Source: a virus | IMG/VR virus record: IMGVR_UViG_3300022538_000121 | Location: 1-37,245 of that record | Length of the DNA stretch: 37,245 nucleotides | Reading direction: 5' to 3' (one strand) | Shown: positions 2,759 through 37,000 of the stretch, in pieces | Numbering within the stretch: the first letter of the stretch is position 1 | Layout of the letters: every line of letters starts with the position of its first letter | Notes under the pieces: generated by a model | The model's database searches: none | What the model saw: only the letters and a program-made list of their open reading frames with translations | Told to the model about the DNA's origin: nothing | Made by a program: the position numbers and the translations under genes

Positions 2759-3208
2759 CTAAAACGGCGGGTCAGTTGGCGAAGTATCAGGTGGCATACC
2801 ATCTATGGGGTCATTTATCAGGTCGTCCATCTGTTGACCAACAGGTTTCATTGCCGGACTGGGCGTTGCCGCTTCTACTTCTGGTTGTGGTACATAAACC
2901 CTGATTCCGCCTGTAATTTTGCCAGCAAAGGCCACCGTCTTGTCATTATACAAGGTTATTGTCTGGCCTATCCAGTCCTTGAAATCATCACTGCCTGTAA
3001 TAACTTGAATACGCTGGCCGTTAGTAATGTTCAAGACCATAGGCTTGTCCAGTTCTTTGAAGTGCAGTACCCATTTCATTTCAGGGGCTTGGCTTTCTAA
3101 GGCCACGTTCATTTCTTCGTATTTTGTAATAGTGGCTTTTACGGGCGGGTCAACGTCTTCTTTGGTTAAGAAATTACTTGATTTTAAATCGTTAACGGTG
3201 GGACTCAT
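2759..3208 (-). CDS. Putative OB-fold / SSB-like DNA-metabolism protein
   Basis: The product has 149 residues. The core (about residues 20-110) is beta-rich, with VLNITNGQRIQ, a DDFKDWIGQTITLYNDK segment and KITGGIRVYVP. This is a conserved phage pattern often next to recombination genes. The last 40 residues are Pro/Asp-rich and disordered-looking, ending in DTSPTDPPF. An acidic tail ending in PF is the hallmark of bacterial SSB C-termini, which recruit partner enzymes, so single-strand binding is a reasonable inference. The core is not a recognisable canonical SSB. Confidence 0.45.
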   Translation of the reverse strand: MSPTVNDLKSSNFLTKEDVDPPVKATITKYEEMNVALESQAPEMKWVLHFKELDKPMVLNITNGQRIQVITGSDDFKDWIGQTITLYNDKTVAFAGKITGGIRVYVPQPEVEAATPSPAMKPVGQQMDDLINDPIDGMPPDTSPTDPPF

Positions 3209-3224
3209 AATTATTTTCCTTTCT

Positions 3225-3692
3225 CTAAATGTGTGTCCAAAATTTCTTTCGTATTATTGCCCATACGCTTTGGTATGTCCCCTCAAATTGTTTGTGTATA
3301 TCGACAATTCTCATTCCTTGTTGATAAAGGCGTCGTATTTTCAATACTTGTTCTTCAGTATATATATGACGGCCATTTTTTATTCCTTTTATATCTCCCC
3401 TGATATTTCTTCCTTTTTTGTGCATATCTTGCATATTATCTTTTTGGGTTCCAAGGAAAAGATGGTCAGGATTAACACACGAAGAATTATCGCATTTGTG
3501 ACATATTTGTAATTTAACAGGAAAAATCCCGTGATAAAACCGATAAGAAACTCGATGAGCATTTTCTCTTTTTCCGTTTGTGTGCCTTACTATGCCATAT
3601 CCATAAGGGTTTTTATCACCAACCCAAATCCAACAGGAATCAGTTTTGATAAATAGTTTTTCAAACCGAGACAAACAAACTGCCGCTCTCAT
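3225..3692 (-). CDS. HNH homing endonuclease with C-terminal HTH
   Basis: The product has 155 residues. AHRVSY (about 45-50) carries the first His. ICHKCDNSSCVNPDHLFLGT (63-82) carries the Cys-His-Cys and N-P-D-H elements of a zinc-type HNH nuclease. Residues about 112-150 look like a helix-turn-helix (EEQVLKIRRLYQQGMRIVDI). This is the domain order of free-standing phage homing endonucleases. It interrupts a run of small replication and accessory genes and probably arrived as a mobile gene. AAAGGAT precedes the ATG. Confidence 0.85.
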   Translation of the reverse strand: MRAAVCLSRFEKLFIKTDSCWIWVGDKNPYGYGIVRHTNGKRENAHRVSYRFYHGIFPVKLQICHKCDNSSCVNPDHLFLGTQKDNMQDMHKKGRNIRGDIKGIKNGRHIYTEEQVLKIRRLYQQGMRIVDIHKQFEGTYQSVWAIIRKKFWTHI

Positions 3693-6759: not shown

Positions 6760-6793
6760 CAATAAAAGCCAGCCCCAATCCAGAAGGCTGGCT
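6760..6793 (-). terminator. Rho-independent terminator of the large RNA
   Basis: On the minus strand AGCCAGCC (6793-6786) and GGCTGGCT (6774-6767) form an 8-bp stem with an 11-base loop. TTTTATT follows (6767-6761). It ends the structured noncoding block to its right. Confidence 0.75.
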
Positions 6794-7611
6794 TCGGGTG
6801 ATGATAGCTCCGCCCTGATAAGCTGTGCAGGATTCGAACCTGCTTGCTCACAAATACACGAAGTACTTGCTCTACGTTTTGCTCTTGTTCGGTGGCCAAC
6901 CAACATAGTCTCAGTTCCTATGCCCTCAGCGTTTCCCACACGCCGACAGCTATCAGGACGGTCTGCAACCGTCTCCGGTCGCTCAGTACACTGTACGCTT
7001 GGCACAGGTACAAACCAGCGGTTGGGGTAGGCAGGATTCGAACCTGTTCAAGCTCTTGCACACCTGTTTTAAGCCGTACAGCAGCACATTTCGCCCGCCA
7101 CAAGAGACCCTAATGGGTCGACGTTGCCTTTTGACTACGTTCCCCACACGCCGCTACCCCTGACCTTGCTTGCGACCATAATTTAATGCCTATAAGCTGA
7201 GTCTCCGCTGACAGTATTTTTATATAAAAGAACTTTCAAAGGTGGACTCGGCGGGTGCTTGTCAGTAAATGTAGTTCGTCAACTTAGCCCACGCAATTTG
7301 ACACTCACAGCAGGTTTTATAGGTTATTTCCCTGCATACTACCCGCCGAAGTCCATATTTCGTTAACTAAATAGGTGCGGGATAGGCAGGCTTCGGCCTA
7401 CCGATTAAACCGTTCAAGCCGCTAAGCCTTAATGGCGTAGTAATCCACTATCCAGTTTTACCCCGCATAATTCCAAAGAACGTTGACATCTTTTCCGTTG
7501 CTTTTGCTGTAAATCCCTGTCCTGCTTATACTTAACTATGACACTTTTCGTGCCACTAATCAGCCCCAACCACTGCCGTCGCGGGGACTTGCAAGTGTGA
7601 GCCGAATATGT
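6794..7611 (-). ncRNA. Candidate large structured phage RNA (about 0.8 kb)
   Basis: No convincing protein gene lies between 6,742 and 7,611; open frames there are unlike any neighbour. On the minus strand the block contains many strong pairings: a 13-bp helix (7341-7354 with 7244-7256, one bulge), a 9-bp helix (7459-7467 with 7376-7384), a 7-bp hairpin with a four-base loop (7385-7402), and an anticodon-arm-like hairpin with loop TTGCAGA (6958-6974). Two modules (6814-6957 and 7024-7160) each share CGGCGTGTGGG near the 5' end and end in a T-arm-like hairpin with loop TTCGAAT. A terminator follows. Known giant phage RNAs such as GOLLD and ROOL are similar in size and lie near phage tRNAs; I cannot confirm membership. 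Neither module folds as a normal tRNA. Confidence 0.6.
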
Positions 7612-7992
7612 TTATCTTTTCCTTTTCCCAAAGTATTTAGGGCATATTATTTCTGCGGAGACAATGGAACGATAGCCGCCTTGTAGGCCTATTGCCGTTA
7701 TTGATTTGATAGGTACACGGCAACAAATAATTTTTTCGTTTGAATTTCCATATCGCCAGTGTTTTGCCCCCCATTTTGATAGAAAAGAATGGAAGGCGGC
7801 TCTATATTCAAAGAGTTTTCTGCCCTTGGTTGTATTTTTGCCACTGTGAAATTTATAATTATACAGCCAAGGTCTGTATATAGCAGGTGCTATTTTGCAA
7901 AACACTTTATAAACAGTTATAAACCCGTTCTTTTGGTGTTTGGCAATCAGTTCTTCACGTTTCTTTTTAGAATATACAGTGGATAGACACAT
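7612..7992 (-). CDS. Conserved phage hypothetical protein (MCLSTV start)
   Basis: The product has 126 residues, very basic, with N-terminus MCLSTVYSKKKREELI and then G-F-I-T-V-Y-K-V. The second half includes CCRVPIKSITAIGLQGG. Proteins with this MCLSTV opening recur in phages with unknown function. Its stop is immediately before the large RNA, so the RNA may be co-transcribed with it and processed. Confidence 0.65.
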   Translation of the reverse strand: MCLSTVYSKKKREELIAKHQKNGFITVYKVFCKIAPAIYRPWLYNYKFHSGKNTTKGRKLFEYRAAFHSFLSKWGAKHWRYGNSNEKIICCRVPIKSITAIGLQGGYRSIVSAEIICPKYFGKRKR

Positions 7993-8005
7993 AATTACTC
8001 TCCTG

Positions 8006-8311
8006 TTATTTGTTTTCTACTGCCTCTATACAATCTTGCAGGGCTTGAATAAGGAGTTTGGTAGATTCAATTGTAAAAACGTCACCAGGACATTCCTTGC
8101 CTGTATTATCAAAGCCGCCCTCTTCTCTACCACAACGTCCATTCTCAAGAATACTAATACGCACACTATAACCACATCCGCTTTCCCGTTCAGAAACTCG
8201 AACCCTGTCAATTTCTGCTTCAAACGGTTTCTTCTTGTGCATCATTGCTGTCTCTTCGCTGATTTGGATTTTAAGATTCTTGTCTTCTTCGCTTGTTATG
8301 TAATAGTTCAT
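8006..8311 (-). CDS. Hypothetical protein
   Basis: This 101-residue soluble protein has an acidic C-terminal helix (ESTKLLIQALQDCIEAVENK). No family is recognised. GGAG is present upstream. Confidence 0.55.
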   Translation of the reverse strand: MNYYITSEEDKNLKIQISEETAMMHKKKPFEAEIDRVRVSERESGCGYSVRISILENGRCGREEGGFDNTGKECPGDVFTIESTKLLIQALQDCIEAVENK

Positions 8312-8313
8312 AA

Positions 8314-8712
8314 TTACTCCTTCTCTGCGTTTGCGATGGCTTGTCTGCCAATCATAGCACTACCCGTTTCATCTTCTGCGCCTGGGTCAATACCATAACG
8401 GGCATAATTATTGCCCTCAATTTCTATAAGCATTATTTTGCACGCTACCAGCAAAGCATCGCGTTGTTGTTTAAAATCCAATGCAGTTAATTTTAAGCCC
8501 TCGCAACCTTCTTTGTAATCAGCTAATTCTTGTGTTAGAGCATCGTGGGAGTTCCAGCATTCTTTTGTGTGTTTAATGTTAGCTTTTCGTAGCAAAATTT
8601 CTTGTGCTGTTGTGCATCCATTGGGAAATACACAAAGAATAGTATTATTCCCGATTTGAAGCAGGTTCGGAAAATTATCTGACGAAACTAATTCACCTTC
8701 TGTATGTTCCAT
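8314..8712 (-). CDS. Hypothetical protein with QRDALLVA...AIANAE C-terminal module
   Basis: The product has 132 residues. The N-terminus is unique. The C-terminal part has QQRDALLVACKIMLIEIEG and ends in MIGRQAIANAEKE. The same module (QRDALLVALQWVL...QAIADAESEV) ends the gene at 10,009-10,269, so the two are partial paralogues. The module is common in early phage proteins. The function is unknown. Confidence 0.6.
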   Translation of the reverse strand: MEHTEGELVSSDNFPNLLQIGNNTILCVFPNGCTTAQEILLRKANIKHTKECWNSHDALTQELADYKEGCEGLKLTALDFKQQRDALLVACKIMLIEIEGNNYARYGIDPGAEDETGSAMIGRQAIANAEKE

Positions 8713-8720
8713 ATCGCCAC

Positions 8721-9041
8721 CTATTTTTTAAGCCTTATTCTGTTTAGCTTGCGGATTTTGGCATAGAATTTGAGGGGGTTATATCTCCAGTGATACTCCG
8801 GATTCTGACAATGAAAATGTTTATCTACTCTTGTGGGAGGGCATTTACTACAATCAGCGTCATATTGCTCGTCATACTCACAAAAGAAACAATGTGCTGC
8901 AATATTCGCAAACCCATTTTCTTTACACCAAATCCTTTTAAGTGTAGTAATACGACGGCGACTTCCCGCTTTCTTTTGTTTAATCATCTTTCGCCACTGT
9001 TTCAAGCACAATTCCCAAGCTTTGTTTAATGTTAGTTTCAT
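8721..9041 (-). CDS. Cys/His-rich protein
   Basis: This 106-residue basic protein has a central cluster HCFFCEYDEQYDADCSKCPP and HFHCQ. That is six Cys/His ligands in about 30 residues, likely a zinc-binding domain flanked by basic arms. Nucleic-acid binding is plausible. Confidence 0.6.
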   Translation of the reverse strand: MKLTLNKAWELCLKQWRKMIKQKKAGSRRRITTLKRIWCKENGFANIAAHCFFCEYDEQYDADCSKCPPTRVDKHFHCQNPEYHWRYNPLKFYAKIRKLNRIRLKK

Positions 9042-9050
9042 CTTATCACC

Positions 9051-9260
9051 TCAAAAACTGACCGTTAGCTTGCGAATACTTCTTTTGCCACCTTTCCAGT
9101 TGATGTGGAAAAACCTTGTAATGTCGCTTGGGCAAAAACTTCTTAGTGAAGAATCACCCTCCAAACTTTTCCATTCACCGTTATCCCAAATAGGCATTTC
9201 TTTCCAAAGCCAATAGTTCTTATTATAACTGTCTCTTGTTAGCCAAAATGTAATTTTCAT
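9051..9260 (-). CDS. Hypothetical Trp-rich protein
   Basis: This 69-residue protein has many Trp (TFWLTRDSYNKNYWLWKEMP). AGGAG is nine bases before the ATG. It is the first gene behind a promoter and attenuator-like leader (9270-9446). The function is unknown. Confidence 0.6.
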   Translation of the reverse strand: MKITFWLTRDSYNKNYWLWKEMPIWDNGEWKSLEGDSSLRSFCPSDITRFFHINWKGGKRSIRKLTVSF

Positions 9261-9271
9261 TTCAATCTCCT

Positions 9272-9329
9272 AAATAAAGGCCGCCGAAGGTCAAAATGCA
9301 CGGTCTGCGAAATGAATTCTCCGACGGCC
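9272..9329 (-). terminator. Attenuator-like terminator in leader
   Basis: On the minus strand GGCCGTCGGAG (9329-9319) pairs with CTTCGGCGGCC (9289-9279), 11 bp including GU pairs. TTTATTT follows (9278-9272) just before the ribosome-binding site of the next gene. The 29-base loop contains ACCGTGCATTTT, complementary to the start of the same leader. Confidence 0.6.
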
Positions 9330-9399
9330 TCCCTGCCATCCCTGACAGAAATACAAGGAACTCTTGAGGACATCTGTTGGTTATTCTACCGTGCATTTT
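9293..9399. repeat. 12-bp perfect inverted repeat in leader
   Basis: AAAATGCACGGT (9293-9304) and ACCGTGCATTTT (9388-9399) are perfect complements. The left copy lies inside the loop of the terminator at 9272-9329, so pairing of the two copies would form a pseudoknot with the terminator or compete with it. Confidence 0.7.
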
Positions 9400-9417
9400 C
9401 AATCTCCACTTTTCTGG

Positions 9418-9446
9418 AACATACCATAATTACTTTGAACTGTCAA
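9418..9446 (-). promoter_or_regulatory. Sigma70-type leftward promoter
   Basis: On the minus strand there is TTGACA (9446-9441), a 17-base spacer, then TATGTT (9423-9418). A start near 9410 would place the 12-base repeat copy at the very beginning of the transcript. A second TTGACA lies 16 bases further upstream (9462-9457). Confidence 0.6.
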
Positions 9447-9499
9447 GGAAAATATCTGTCAATTTCTGCATTTTCTGGAGTTTTTTATTATTCCAGTTG

Positions 9500-9742
9500 T
9501 CATAAGGGGTTATGGTTTACCCATTCAACATTATCAAACATAACACTGTTAAATATTACTTCGGGAAACCCTTCTAACCATATATTTGTATTCCAATCGT
9601 GAACATCAATACGACTAACTTTGTAAATTTCTCCAACCACCAAATGCTCACCCGCCTGGTCTTGGTCGTGCTGATAACCTGCTGTTGGATGAGCAAATTT
9701 AATAGAATTACCTGTTTTGGTTCTGTGAATATCAATACTCAT
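9500..9742 (-). CDS. Hypothetical protein
   Basis: This 80-residue protein is beta-rich, with a middle HLVVGEIYKVSRIDVHDWNT, similar in style to small SH3-like phage proteins. It is followed by a 239-base gap with a promoter and attenuator. There is a good Shine-Dalgarno (GGAG). Confidence 0.55.
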   Translation of the reverse strand: MSIDIHRTKTGNSIKFAHPTAGYQHDQDQAGEHLVVGEIYKVSRIDVHDWNTNIWLEGFPEVIFNSVMFDNVEWVNHNPL

Positions 9743-9868
9743 TTTAATCTCCTATTCAAGACAAAACAATCCACTTTAATTTCCCTAAATCCATCATATA
9801 TCGGCATTTAGCCTCAAACTAAGCTCCTCAGCCACCGCCTACGGCGTTAAGTCGGGGTGGGGCAGGCT

Positions 9869-12249: not shown

Positions 12250-12777
12250 ATGAAAACAATTGAATTAACACGAGACGCAAAAACTATTGTTGATGACATA
12301 GATTATGTTTATTTGAAAGAACATAAATGGTTTTTGGGTAAAAATGGCCGACTTCGATATGCACAACGACAAATAAGAGACCGGGTAGTTTTGAACAAAC
12401 GTGGAGAAAAAAAATGTATTCATGTATCAATGCACCGAGTAATTATGCAAGCTCCCAAAGGTGTGAACATTGACCATATAGATGGAGACGGATTGAACAA
12501 TCGCCGAGGCAATCTACGACTTAGTACACATTCACAAAATTTGTGGAATCAAAGAAGTAAAAAGCGGTTCAAGGGGGTTTTTTGTGCAGGTAAAAAATGG
12601 AGAGTGTGTATAACAGCAAGCGGAATTACTCATCACTTAGGAAGTTTTACTCAAGAAATAGCTGCTGCCAAAGAATATGACAAACTGGCAAAAATACTAC
12701 ACGGCGAGTTTGCCTGTCTTAATTTTCCTGAAAATTCTTTGTCTGATAATTATAGTGTATTAAAAGGGTTACGATAA
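12250..12777 (+). CDS. HNH endonuclease with AP2 DNA-binding domain
   Basis: The product has 175 residues. The HNH part spans about 55-100: MHR (His62), then GVNIDHIDGDGLNNRRGNLR with the D-H and N residues. The AP2-like part spans about 105-160 (KRFKGVFCAGKKWRVCITA, then LGSFTQEIAAAKEYDKLA). This fusion is typical of free-standing phage homing endonucleases, which cut related phage genomes and spread. It is the first gene of the right arm, next to the promoter. AAGGA lies before the ATG. Confidence 0.88.
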   Translation: MKTIELTRDAKTIVDDIDYVYLKEHKWFLGKNGRLRYAQRQIRDRVVLNKRGEKKCIHVSMHRVIMQAPKGVNIDHIDGDGLNNRRGNLRLSTHSQNLWNQRSKKRFKGVFCAGKKWRVCITASGITHHLGSFTQEIAAAKEYDKLAKILHGEFACLNFPENSLSDNYSVLKGLR

Positions 12778-25239: not shown

Positions 25240-25859
25240 TGGCTGAATCTGAAACTCGGATATGCAATCAGGCTTTGGCCCGTGCCGGTTCCACGAGAAT
25301 AAACGACCTTGAAAAAGATGGTTCTGTACCAGCTATTCACTGTCGAACTCACTATGAACCAACAAGAGATAGTCTTTTACGTTTACATTGGTGGCGGTTT
25401 GCCAGGGCAAGGGCTGAATTGTCTCAGGATACTGTTGACCCAGACTTTGAATGGGATAATCAATTTATACTCCCAACTGATTTTATGAGATTCAGGTCTA
25501 TCTTTGAAGAAACCAATAGCACTTCTAAGAGTAGGAGACATTCGATTGAAGGAGACAGGCTTTTGACTAATCTCGATGAAGTGAGTCTTAGGTATATTAA
25601 AAAAGTAACAGACGCCTCCAAATTCGACCCGTTATTTGTAGAAGTTTTAGTCTTATTATTGGCAAAGAAACTTATTCCTATTTTAGCCGGTACGGAAGCT
25701 GCACGACTAATGAAAGATGTTAAAGACGACCTGAAAGCCTTAATGCCGAAAGTTTTGGCAGTAGACGAAGATGAAACTGATGTTGGCGGCAGAAGTGATT
25801 GGAACCTTGCTCGTCACGGCGGACTGGGAATAGCGGGTCAAGAGGAAAGGCTCTGGTAA
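25239..25859 (+). CDS. Tail tubular protein A (gp11-like)
   Basis: The 206 residues include ICNQALARAGSTRINDLEKD and then HYEPTRDSLLRLHWWRFARA, the signature of T7 gp11-type adaptor proteins that join portal to tail tube. The C-terminus ends GLGIAGQEERLW. The stop overlaps the next ATG (TAATG). Confidence 0.85.
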   Translation: MAESETRICNQALARAGSTRINDLEKDGSVPAIHCRTHYEPTRDSLLRLHWWRFARARAELSQDTVDPDFEWDNQFILPTDFMRFRSIFEETNSTSKSRRHSIEGDRLLTNLDEVSLRYIKKVTDASKFDPLFVEVLVLLLAKKLIPILAGTEAARLMKDVKDDLKALMPKVLAVDEDETDVGGRSDWNLARHGGLGIAGQEERLW

Positions 25860-34056: not shown

Positions 34057-37000
34057 GTTTCGAGGAATGGAACAAATCTTTGGATGAAGTTGATGATTTT
34101 TCCGCTTGGGAACAGACTTTAACTGCGCCGGTTCTTGATACTGTAGAAGATGTGGATGCAAAGTCTGTAAAAACTCTGCAATTTGCAGATGACCTTGAAA
34201 CGCCCGTCCCTCTTGTAGAAGATTATTATGATGAGATTGTTAATGAAAATCATTTTGTAACGACAGTAGCAGACCCGAAAGACGTTTCTTTCTTTAGCGA
34301 AGATAAAACAAAGGCCAGGAAAATCGGACTCCGAGAACAGATTCAGAGAATGGATGCTATTGATTGGTTAAAACGAGCACCTGTTAGTATTTGGGGTGCA
34401 GTGGATACCGGCGACCTTGCTTTAACTGCCAAGCGATTACAAAAAAACCAATATGAGACTATCGGCCAGTTGCGAAAGAAGGTTGCAGATGCCCAGGAAA
34501 CCGCTCGATTTGCTGAACCTATTTATGACGAGGAAGTACGTTTGGCGGCTGGTTTACCGGAATGGGACAAAGGATTGCCGGATGAAGCGTTAAGTTCAAA
34601 AGGCGAACAAACTCGATTGCGAGACATACAGCGAATCGAAAAATATTTACTTGAACAACACGAACTTGCTGAAAGAGGACAGACTTTTACTGCCAAGGTA
34701 TTTGATGGCGCAAGTTATTTGCCTGGCTGGATGATTGAATTTTTTCTAACCGGTGGATTATCTAAACTTGGTAATGAAACAGCAAGACAAATTGTTGTAA
34801 AAACTTTACGTGGCTATACAAAGACAAAGGCTGGTCAAACTGTTTTAAGGGCAAGCGGCTGGACTGGCGGGGCGATAACAAGGGCTTCTTTGGGGTTATC
34901 TCACAGGGTTATAGAAGAAACTTTCGAGCATAGAATTCCGAAACAGATGCACTTTGGCCCTGATGGGAACTTGATAATTGATATTGAACCGGATAGTTGG
35001 GCTACTTCTATTCTTAAAGGATGGGGAGATGTAGTTATAGAAGCTGCGTCAGAAGAGGCTGGAGCTACTATTACAAAAGGATTAAGCGGAATTGTTAAGA
35101 AGATGCCCTTTGGTAGTCAGGTTGTAAATAAGCTCGAAGATGCCTGGACTGCAATCAGGCCGGAAAACACAAAGGCATTATTTGCTCAAAGGATATTTAC
35201 TCGTGCCGGATATAGTAATATAATTGGTGAAATTGGGGAGGAATTTCTGGCTACTCAATTAAAAGCGATTACTGATGTTGATGATTTCGGATTAGGCGAA
35301 AATGCTGATATGTTTGAACGGATGGCCGAAGGGCTTACCCAGGATATAAAAAATCTACCTGTTACCGCCACTGTTCTTACTCTGCCTGCTGGTACTCGTT
35401 TTGCAATCGGGCGTTTAGCCCAGAATGAACAATTACCATTTATTGAAATACCTGATAGGCAAAAGGGTGAAGTGGAACAGATGCAATCTGAAACCGAAGC
35501 GATAGAGGCTTTAGGCGCAAGTGAACAATATCTTAACGATCCGGAAAGCACAGATTTTCAACCACAAGAACCAACAGAGGGACAGGTTGGTGCAATTAGA
35601 GATTTTTTCCATAAGGTCGGAGTTAAAGATAAATCGGGATATGAGCCTCTTGGTGATAAAGATTTTGTGGATATGTTCAAATTTCTGCAAATGCCGGAAG
35701 ATATAAGACGAACATTTCCGCAATTTGACCCGGTATATCAAGTGCAAAGAGCGAGAGAAGTCCAAAAGGCAAATCTTGATAATACATTCGCCGAGATGAC
35801 CCGTCCATATTTTGAATTGTCCGATAAAAATAGAAAAAAAGTCGACTCTGTCTTATTTGAAGCTGATAGAAATCCGGCACAGACTTTCGGGCCGAAGGCA
35901 TTAAGTAAATTTGGTTTAGACCAAAAACAACAAAAAGCATTTCTGTCTGTTCGCAAGGGTTTGGATACGTCAAAAAATCTTCTTATCGACCGAATGAAAG
36001 ATATGGGGGTCAAGAAAGAAACTATCGAGAAGTTTGAAGCTCAATTACAAAATTATATTCCCCATAAATGGTATGGTAATTGGGCGGTAGTAGCGAGAGA
36101 AACATTCGTTGAAAAAGAAAAGATTACGAAGAAGCGGGTAATTAAGATACCCAAGAAAATAACTCCTACGACTGTTGAATCAATACTCTCAATGACGGAT
36201 AAGGCGTTCATCGCTAAGGACATTAGAAGAATTGCACAAATTAAAAAGGCTCTTTCTGATAGGATTGATGAGGCTCTCGCTGATGGTCGAATTGATGATG
36301 CCAGAGCGGCTAAAGAATTATGGGCAGGGGTTGACCAGATAGAATTTGAATTAGCCAAGAAAGCCCAAGTCTCCCCTGTGGCGGTTACAGAAGAGAAAAT
36401 CAAAAGGGAATTAAAGCAACCTCGCACAATTTTTATGTCGGCTACGAGCTTTACAGACAGATTCACAGAAAGAGACAGGGTCAAAAAACTGCATCCTAAT
36501 ACAGATGTAATAATTTTAAGAAGAAATAAAATACCTTTTAAGGCATTCCAGGAAGCACCTCCTTTTGCCGTTCAAAGAATGCTCGATTTAACCATTGAGA
36601 AAGCGGAGGCAAGCGCAGATGTAAAAGCTTCTATGCAAGAAGCGTTATCTGATTTATATAAGTCTAAAGGTTTTGGAATGCACTTTATAAGACGAAAAAA
36701 TATTCCAGGATATACGGAAGATTTGAAACGCCCTCTTGCAGAATATTTCGTTGGTTTTTCCGGCTATATTTCCAAAATGGAGGCAATTAAAGCGTTTCCC
36801 GACGCTATAGGAGAGATACATCCACAGCGAACTCCCAATTTATATAAGTATGCTCTCGATTATGTTAAATATGTGACGGGAGACCAAAGGGAATTTGCAA
36901 ATGCCAAACGTGGAATGTACTTTTATTATCTATTTGGCAATATTAAATCGGCAAGTCTCAATATGACGCAGAATATTACTTTGGGCTGGCCGACACTTTC

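Follow-up and report, generated by a model that had tools for sequence, protein, structure and literature searches.

A candidate family of phage RNAs with a tRNA-like shell and variable inserts, with two units in an IMG/VR virus

Results

Coding content and fold of the block

The window analyzed here is the whole stretch of 37,245 nt of the IMG/VR virus record IMGVR_UViG_3300022538_000121. Its segment 6760-7611 was described in an earlier note, made from the sequence alone, as a block free of proteins that looked like a large structured RNA. We found no plausible protein in it: the open reading frames are short and mutually overlapping, there is no Pfam match, and each of the six frames contains 9 to 16 stops. 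The GC content of the block is 0.50 compared to 0.41 for the whole window. The RNA of the minus strand was more stable than 20 shuffled sequences (z-score of -3.86), 300-nt pieces of the block had fold z-scores from -1.3 to -3.4, and the block had the lowest fold energy among the sampled windows.

The helices, hairpins and terminator listed in the note are indeed present on the minus strand, along which we follow them from 5' to 3'. A structured domain at 7374..7466 is closed by an 8-bp helix, GCGGGGTA/TATCCCGC (7466-7374), and is accompanied by an adjacent 6-bp hairpin. A second domain, at 7244..7354, is closed by the long helix formed by GGACTTCGGCGGGT (7354-7341) and ACCCGCCGAGTCC (7256-7244); both domains are seen in the sequence and in the fold. 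The words TGTCAG and CTGACA, proposed earlier as pseudoknot partners, both occur in the block. The hairpin with the anticodon-arm-like loop TTGCAGA is GACGGT-TGCAG-ACCGTC (6957..6973). The block ends with a terminator-like hairpin, a GC stem AGCCAGCC/GGCTGGCT followed by the T-run TTTATT (6760..6795), which is part of the minimum-energy fold. Our terminator scanner missed this stem because its loop is longer than the scanner limit of 8.

Two units with a tRNA shell

Two further hairpins named in the note, T-arm-like and with the loop TTCGAAT (7047-7031 and 6843-6827, minus strand), are parts of two complete tRNA shells on this strand, delineated from the sequence and by a shell finder, with shell covariation in relatives. 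We refer to these as unit B (7160-7024, 137 nt) and unit C (6952-6820, 133 nt). In both units the T-arm is directly joined to seven bases whose pairing partners are located 110-130 nt upstream.

In unit B, the acceptor GGGGTAG (7160-7154)/CTACCCC (7030-7024) pairs at 7 of 7 positions and is followed by the linker CG (7153-7152) and the D-arm GCGTGTGGGGAACGT (7151-7137); the T-arm is ACAGG-TTCGAAT-CCTGC, with A-C as its first pair. In unit C, the acceptor TAGCTGT (6952-6946)/ACAGCTT (6826-6820) pairs at 6 of 7 positions, the linker is again CG, the D-arm is GCGTGTGGGAAACGC (6943-6929), and the T-arm is GCAGG-TTCGAAT-CCTGC. The common form of the two D-arms, following the CG linker, is GCGT-GTGGGRA-ACGY. 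Past a one-base bulge, the acceptor helix of unit C runs for about 8 bp into the flanks, and a part of this flank may belong to the structure of the unit. The hairpin with the TTGCAGA loop lies directly upstream of unit C, outside the shell, and the terminator-like hairpin lies 3' of it.

The place of the anticodon arm is taken, as set by the shell boundaries, by inserts of 89 nt in unit B (7048..7136, minus strand) and 85 nt in unit C (6844..6928, minus strand). Neither insert contains an anticodon arm, i.e. a 5-bp stem with a 7-nt loop next to the D-arm, and neither has a relative among the collected unit loci. When the note denies these modules a tRNA fold, it is correct for the anticodon part; for the acceptor, D- and T-arms the statement does not hold, as two of the modules are tRNA shells. 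We characterize the family by a 7-bp covarying acceptor, a CG linker followed by a GCGT...ACGY D-arm, a T-arm abutting the acceptor, and a non-anticodon insert of at least 24 nt; all these traits are found in B and C. The domain at 7374..7466 is a possible degenerate unit A; it has neither the D-arm motif nor a T-loop, and its membership is not supported.

No Rfam model matched the window at the gathering score. The Rfam search proposed in the note gave, at E-values up to 5, only a weak overlap with tRNA-Sec in the 3' half of unit B (19.4 bits, compared to the cut-off of 47), so Rfam lends no support to a kinship with GOLLD, ROOL or OLE. ARAGORN reported neither a tRNA nor a tmRNA in the window. 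A relative of the whole block was not found, nor were relatives of its part 7611-7165, which includes the possible unit A and the long-helix domain.

Relatives with the first D-arm

An exact search for CGGCGTGTGGGRAACG in IMG/VR produced 52 loci, slightly more than half of which have the shell if variants of the T-loop are allowed; the remaining loci look like chance or coding matches for the most part. Two-part patterns and a few genome matches brought the total to 36 distinct units, B and C among them. When the motif was placed randomly in the same sequences, a shell appeared in 2 of 1080 trials. Matches in phage MedPE-SWcel-C56, Pseudomonas phage Dolphis, human-gut MT837589 and Variovorax VCLv21 were discarded as coding or chance matches.

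The linker is CG in all 36 units, a trait that was partly selected as CG or a similar linker was favored in scoring. The A preceding the T stem, present in 35 of the 36 units, was not selected for. The discriminator is A in 21 of 36, and CCA is not encoded. The acceptor is 7 bp long and seldom extended, as in tRNA. Some D-stems vary and still pair, e.g. GCCC/GGGC in locus L089 and GTGT/ACAC in L033. Across units, the insert length ranges from 24 to 197 nt and the length of the whole unit from 72 to 245 nt. The relatives contain one or two units and never the 0.85-kb block.

Second and third D-arms

A generic shell finder, which returned no shell from 2 Mb of shuffled sequence, revealed a second D-arm, GCGTGNACGGYGACACGC. 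A scan of IMG/VR for this sequence gave 39 loci, 33 of them with a shell, which adds about 27 distinct units to the 36. Five cultured phages carry a third D-arm, GCGTGGATGGACAYGC, in DNA that has no annotation: Caulobacter phage DMCA, Komagataeibacter phages phiKX1 and phiKX2, Pseudanabaena phage Pan3 and Iodobacter phage phiPLPE. The T-loops of these units have 8 nt. The DMCA unit is located at 25554-25686 of PQ480021, and the RNAs expected from DMCA and phiPLPE would have about 133 and 110 nt, respectively. DMCA and phiKX1 have the shell in common and, for the most part, not the insert. The pattern scans recover only units near the three D-arm sequences, therefore the family is probably larger.

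Covariation of the shell

We used the custom finder and shuffled nulls in place of a covariance model, since inserts of 24 to 197 nt differ too much in length for a single rigid model. In 32 aligned shells with the first D-arm, two-sided variation is seen at every one of the seven acceptor pairs and at four of the five T pairs. The number of cells with two-sided changes was 124 compared to 33.7 in shuffled data, and the covariation score was 0.666 compared to 0.156, while slid structures scored 0.05-0.10. For the second D-arm, we observed 90 two-sided cells versus 22.9 and a covariation score of 0.581 versus 0.109. The numbers for the first D-arm are inflated because pairing was a condition for including a unit; independent checks come from the random-placement control, from the generic finder with its null of 0 and from the pair types, which are diverse. 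Almost no variation is seen at positions 8-9 and in the D-arm, the near-invariance of the D-arm being due in part to searching with its sequence.

Exchange, transfer and structure of the inserts

Between most units the inserts are unrelated. For example, in the sister phages L006 and L053 the flanks are about 89% identical and the shells are kept, with an acceptor change from G-U to A-U, while the inserts, 57 and 39 nt long, have no clear similarity; the insert was replaced. The opposite pattern was observed for L019 and L027, where the unit is 94% identical, the flanks are unrelated, and the homology extends almost exactly from acceptor to acceptor; here the entire unit was transferred between phages that are not related. 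The insert of this pair carries compensatory paired changes (CCGG/UCGG to CCAG/CUGG). L261 and one of the units of L033 have a common insert fold with a conserved loop inside different shells, and a stem of this fold covaries (GUGCCG/CGGCAC versus CUUGCG/CGCAAG).

Helices that end 1-4 nt ahead of the T stem are overrepresented among the inserts (467 versus 392 ± 16), with control offsets near the null, and a further T-arm is present inside some inserts (3 versus 0.025 expected). The inserts had no excess of antisense matches to their own loci (mean longest match of 9.27 versus 9.01 ± 0.20). As far as can be judged from sequence, the inserts are structured and sometimes maintained, yet wholly replaceable.

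Several tRNA-like sequences were seen as well. The insert of the Pan3 unit (L300 798-958; Pan3 36564-36724) nests a tRNA-like sequence with an Rfam tRNA score of 34.9 bits. On the minus strand of L033, a tRNA-like gene at 6169-6113 (Rfam tRNA, 50.4 bits) sits between two tRNA-shell units; it has an acceptor, a D-arm and a T-arm, only 8 nt between the arms and no anticodon arm. In L248 and L249, more distant relatives of L006 and L053, the site of the unit holds a different tRNA-like gene (3065-3165, plus strand) with a 13-nt loop at the anticodon position and a long variable arm. The viral contig L229 has five tRNA-like genes (7156-9770, plus strand) with ordinary D- and T-arms and 58-105 nt between the arms; these resemble tRNAs that have a small hairpin inserted into the anticodon loop.

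Distribution and neighborhood

Among 84,980 genomes of bacteria and archaea we found about 80 exact matches to the first D-arm, only four of them with a shell, and three of these four in planctomycete MAGs. Such a small number of shells among host genomes suggests a phage element that is rarely present in host chromosomes. The search for relatives of the window phage in IMG/VR, via the protein at 7612-7992 or the terminase, gave none; the terminase is about 25% identical to that of Vibrio phages, the nearest named relatives.

No neighbor gene is constant across units. A canonical tRNA on the same strand lies within 1 kb of 7 of 65 units, compared to 3.4% of random positions, and one such tRNA is 7 nt away; the phiKX1 unit is located 3' of a tRNA-Met. 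Many units are situated between co-oriented genes of phage operons. A terminator-like stem follows the unit in this window and in phiKX1.

Two other features of the neighborhoods are worth recording. The window has two HNH endonuclease genes identified by PHROG matches (3225-3692, minus strand, and 12250-12774, plus strand). L035, L262 and L282, phages that are otherwise unrelated, have in common a sequence of 21-26 nt, TGACAGCCGGAGAGACGGC, that ends shortly before the acceptor stem and is possibly a common leader hairpin.

Comparison with known RNA classes

The units resemble tRNA (RF00005) in the 7-bp acceptor, the 2-nt linker, the 4-bp D-stem and the 5-bp T-stem with a TTCRANY loop that adjoins the acceptor, as well as in their occasional location in tRNA clusters. 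They differ from it in the absence of the anticodon arm, in a CG linker where TA is usual, in the special, near-invariant D-arm and in an insert of up to 197 nt. The Rfam tRNA model did not match the window units, while canonical tRNAs neighboring units were matched. ARAGORN in intron mode called many units; however, the anticodons and intron lengths were scattered, and we rejected the assignment to intron-bearing tRNAs. Run without introns, it called 2 of the 36 units, one without an assignable anticodon.

A tRNA-like shell with a long insertion at the position of the anticodon arm is also a property of tmRNA, from which the phage units differ by forming a D-stem. Membership in this class was rejected: there is no match to an Rfam model, ARAGORN in tmRNA mode called none of the 36 units, and the alanine identity pair G3:U70 is present in 5 of 63 units and in neither B nor C.

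The bacterial Y RNA with a tRNA-like domain, YrlA, is a non-coding RNA that mimics the elbow and arms of tRNA. In the phage units, by contrast, the acceptor stem contains both ends. The Rfam Y RNA models had no match, and a Ro60 (TROVE) gene was present in none of the 27 unit-bearing records, the window included, while a positive control was found; Y RNA membership was rejected as well. The large structured RNAs GOLLD and ROOL are likewise found in phages, often near tRNA islands, and have an unknown function; the repeated unit here has 72-245 nt, and membership in GOLLD, ROOL or OLE was rejected for lack of an Rfam match.

By setting, the nearest analogue is the pair of T4 species 1 and 2 RNAs (rnaC and rnaD), stable RNAs of about 120-140 nt with unknown function transcribed from a tRNA cluster (PMC3014915, PMC9697503); the shell is lacking there. 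The T4 rnaC ends in a T-arm with the loop TTCGAAT, but its closing helix has only 3 bp, and the annotated RNA has neither a complete acceptor stem nor any of the D-arm motifs. With the T-arm only, it was rejected as a family member. We also observed that the 3' CGTTTCG of rnaC (L239 1409-1547) could pair with GAAACG, which immediately precedes the 5' end as annotated.

In engineered tRNA scaffolds, the insertion point is the anticodon arm. Such scaffolds, in which a tRNA shell is built around a foreign RNA so that it is expressed stably (e.g. PMC3753655), are synthetic; the phage shells would be their natural counterpart.

The family is absent from Rfam, and searches of openly licensed papers, which covered the first two D-arm sequences, turned up no description of it. 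The relatives, the covariation and the negative Rfam results support the suggestion of the note that the locus encodes a structured non-coding RNA of an undescribed class. Membership fails for every family tested; as a fold, the shell is taken over from tRNA.

Discussion

A family of phage tRNA-shell RNAs, with units B and C as members, almost certainly exists, judging by the conserved and covarying shell. The predicted shell is present in dozens of unrelated phages, with inserts that differ. A shell of this kind should be recognized by the enzymes of tRNA maturation, RNase P and those acting at the 3' end, and be protected as a compact elbow fold.

We propose that the tRNA-like ends and elbow would let host RNase P, 3' nucleases and the CCA-adding enzyme excise the RNA from a longer transcript, and that the same features would stabilize it during infection, making the shell a natural scaffold. 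The insert would do the work as a variable payload, binding a target, either RNA or protein, in the host or in a rival, and it would be replaced or transferred as the targets change. A payload is favored over a pure stuffer because insert structure is conserved in the pairs L019/L027 and L261/L033; this conservation is seen in units of other phages only, as the inserts of the window have no relatives. An antisense payload directed against the unit's own locus was rejected for lack of complementarity. Recognition by one charging enzyme is unlikely since both the acceptor pairs and the discriminator vary. The extension of the unit C helix into the flanks is unlike a processed tRNA end and counts against the scaffold mechanism. 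Taken by itself, this mechanism has an appreciable chance of being right, though we lean somewhat towards doubt; the combined claim, an undescribed phage tRNA-shell family that includes B and C and serves as a scaffold with a variable payload, falls only a little short of an even call.

The main rival explanation reverses the roles of the two parts: the shell would be active, as a tRNA decoy occupying host tRNA-processing enzymes or tRNA-cutting defense nucleases, and the insert would be filler. Without an anticodon loop, such a shell would be immune to inactivation by anticodon nucleases. The shell is far better conserved than the insert, as a decoy would have it, and the L033 gene whose D- and T-arms are only 8 nt apart, scored by Rfam as a tRNA, fits the idea too. 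Filler, however, has no need of the paired changes that maintain insert structure in L019/L027 and L261/L033, and the near-invariant D-arm exceeds the needs of a generic tRNA mimic; we consider the decoy unlikely, while giving it real weight. The D-arm and the maintained insert folds are also left unexplained if the unit is transcript punctuation, that is, a cut signal for host tRNA enzymes in a polycistronic phage transcript that releases an RNA without a role. Many units do lie between co-oriented operon genes, as punctuation would suggest, but the terminator-like stems after the units in the window and in phiKX1 do not follow from it, and this reading is improbable.

The view of the earlier note, in which the whole 0.85 kb would be a single large RNA that includes the shells as domains, draws on the z-score of the whole block, on the additional helices upstream of unit B, on the single terminator-like stem at the end and on the closing helix of unit C, which is longer than 7 bp. 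We see little likelihood in it: relatives have one or two units and not the block, 7611-7165 has no relatives, and no large-RNA model of Rfam matches. As for degenerate or intron-bearing tRNA genes without a role, the tRNA-like shell and the intron-mode calls of ARAGORN, scattered as they are, could be read this way, but strong two-sided covariation and invariant columns could not; calls without introns are few, and the Rfam tRNA model does not match at the window units. This last explanation is hardly credible.

Returning to the scaffold with a variable payload, we tentatively picture modular phage RNAs in which a conserved tRNA shell carries exchangeable payloads of fast turnover, used for host takeover or for phage-phage conflict. 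The shell would be a natural scaffold in phages whose hosts are alpha- and beta-proteobacteria, cyanobacteria and possibly planctomycetes. This wider picture is possible and, in our estimate, rather less than probable.

A strongly covarying RNA family that Rfam lacks, that occurs in diverse phages and that has no annotation in the five cultured ones would show the tRNA fold used by phages to carry other RNA domains. The swapped inserts point to a fast-evolving function and make searches for targets direct. The family may also bear on an old puzzle, the stable non-tRNA RNAs of phage tRNA clusters, such as species 1 and 2 of T4.
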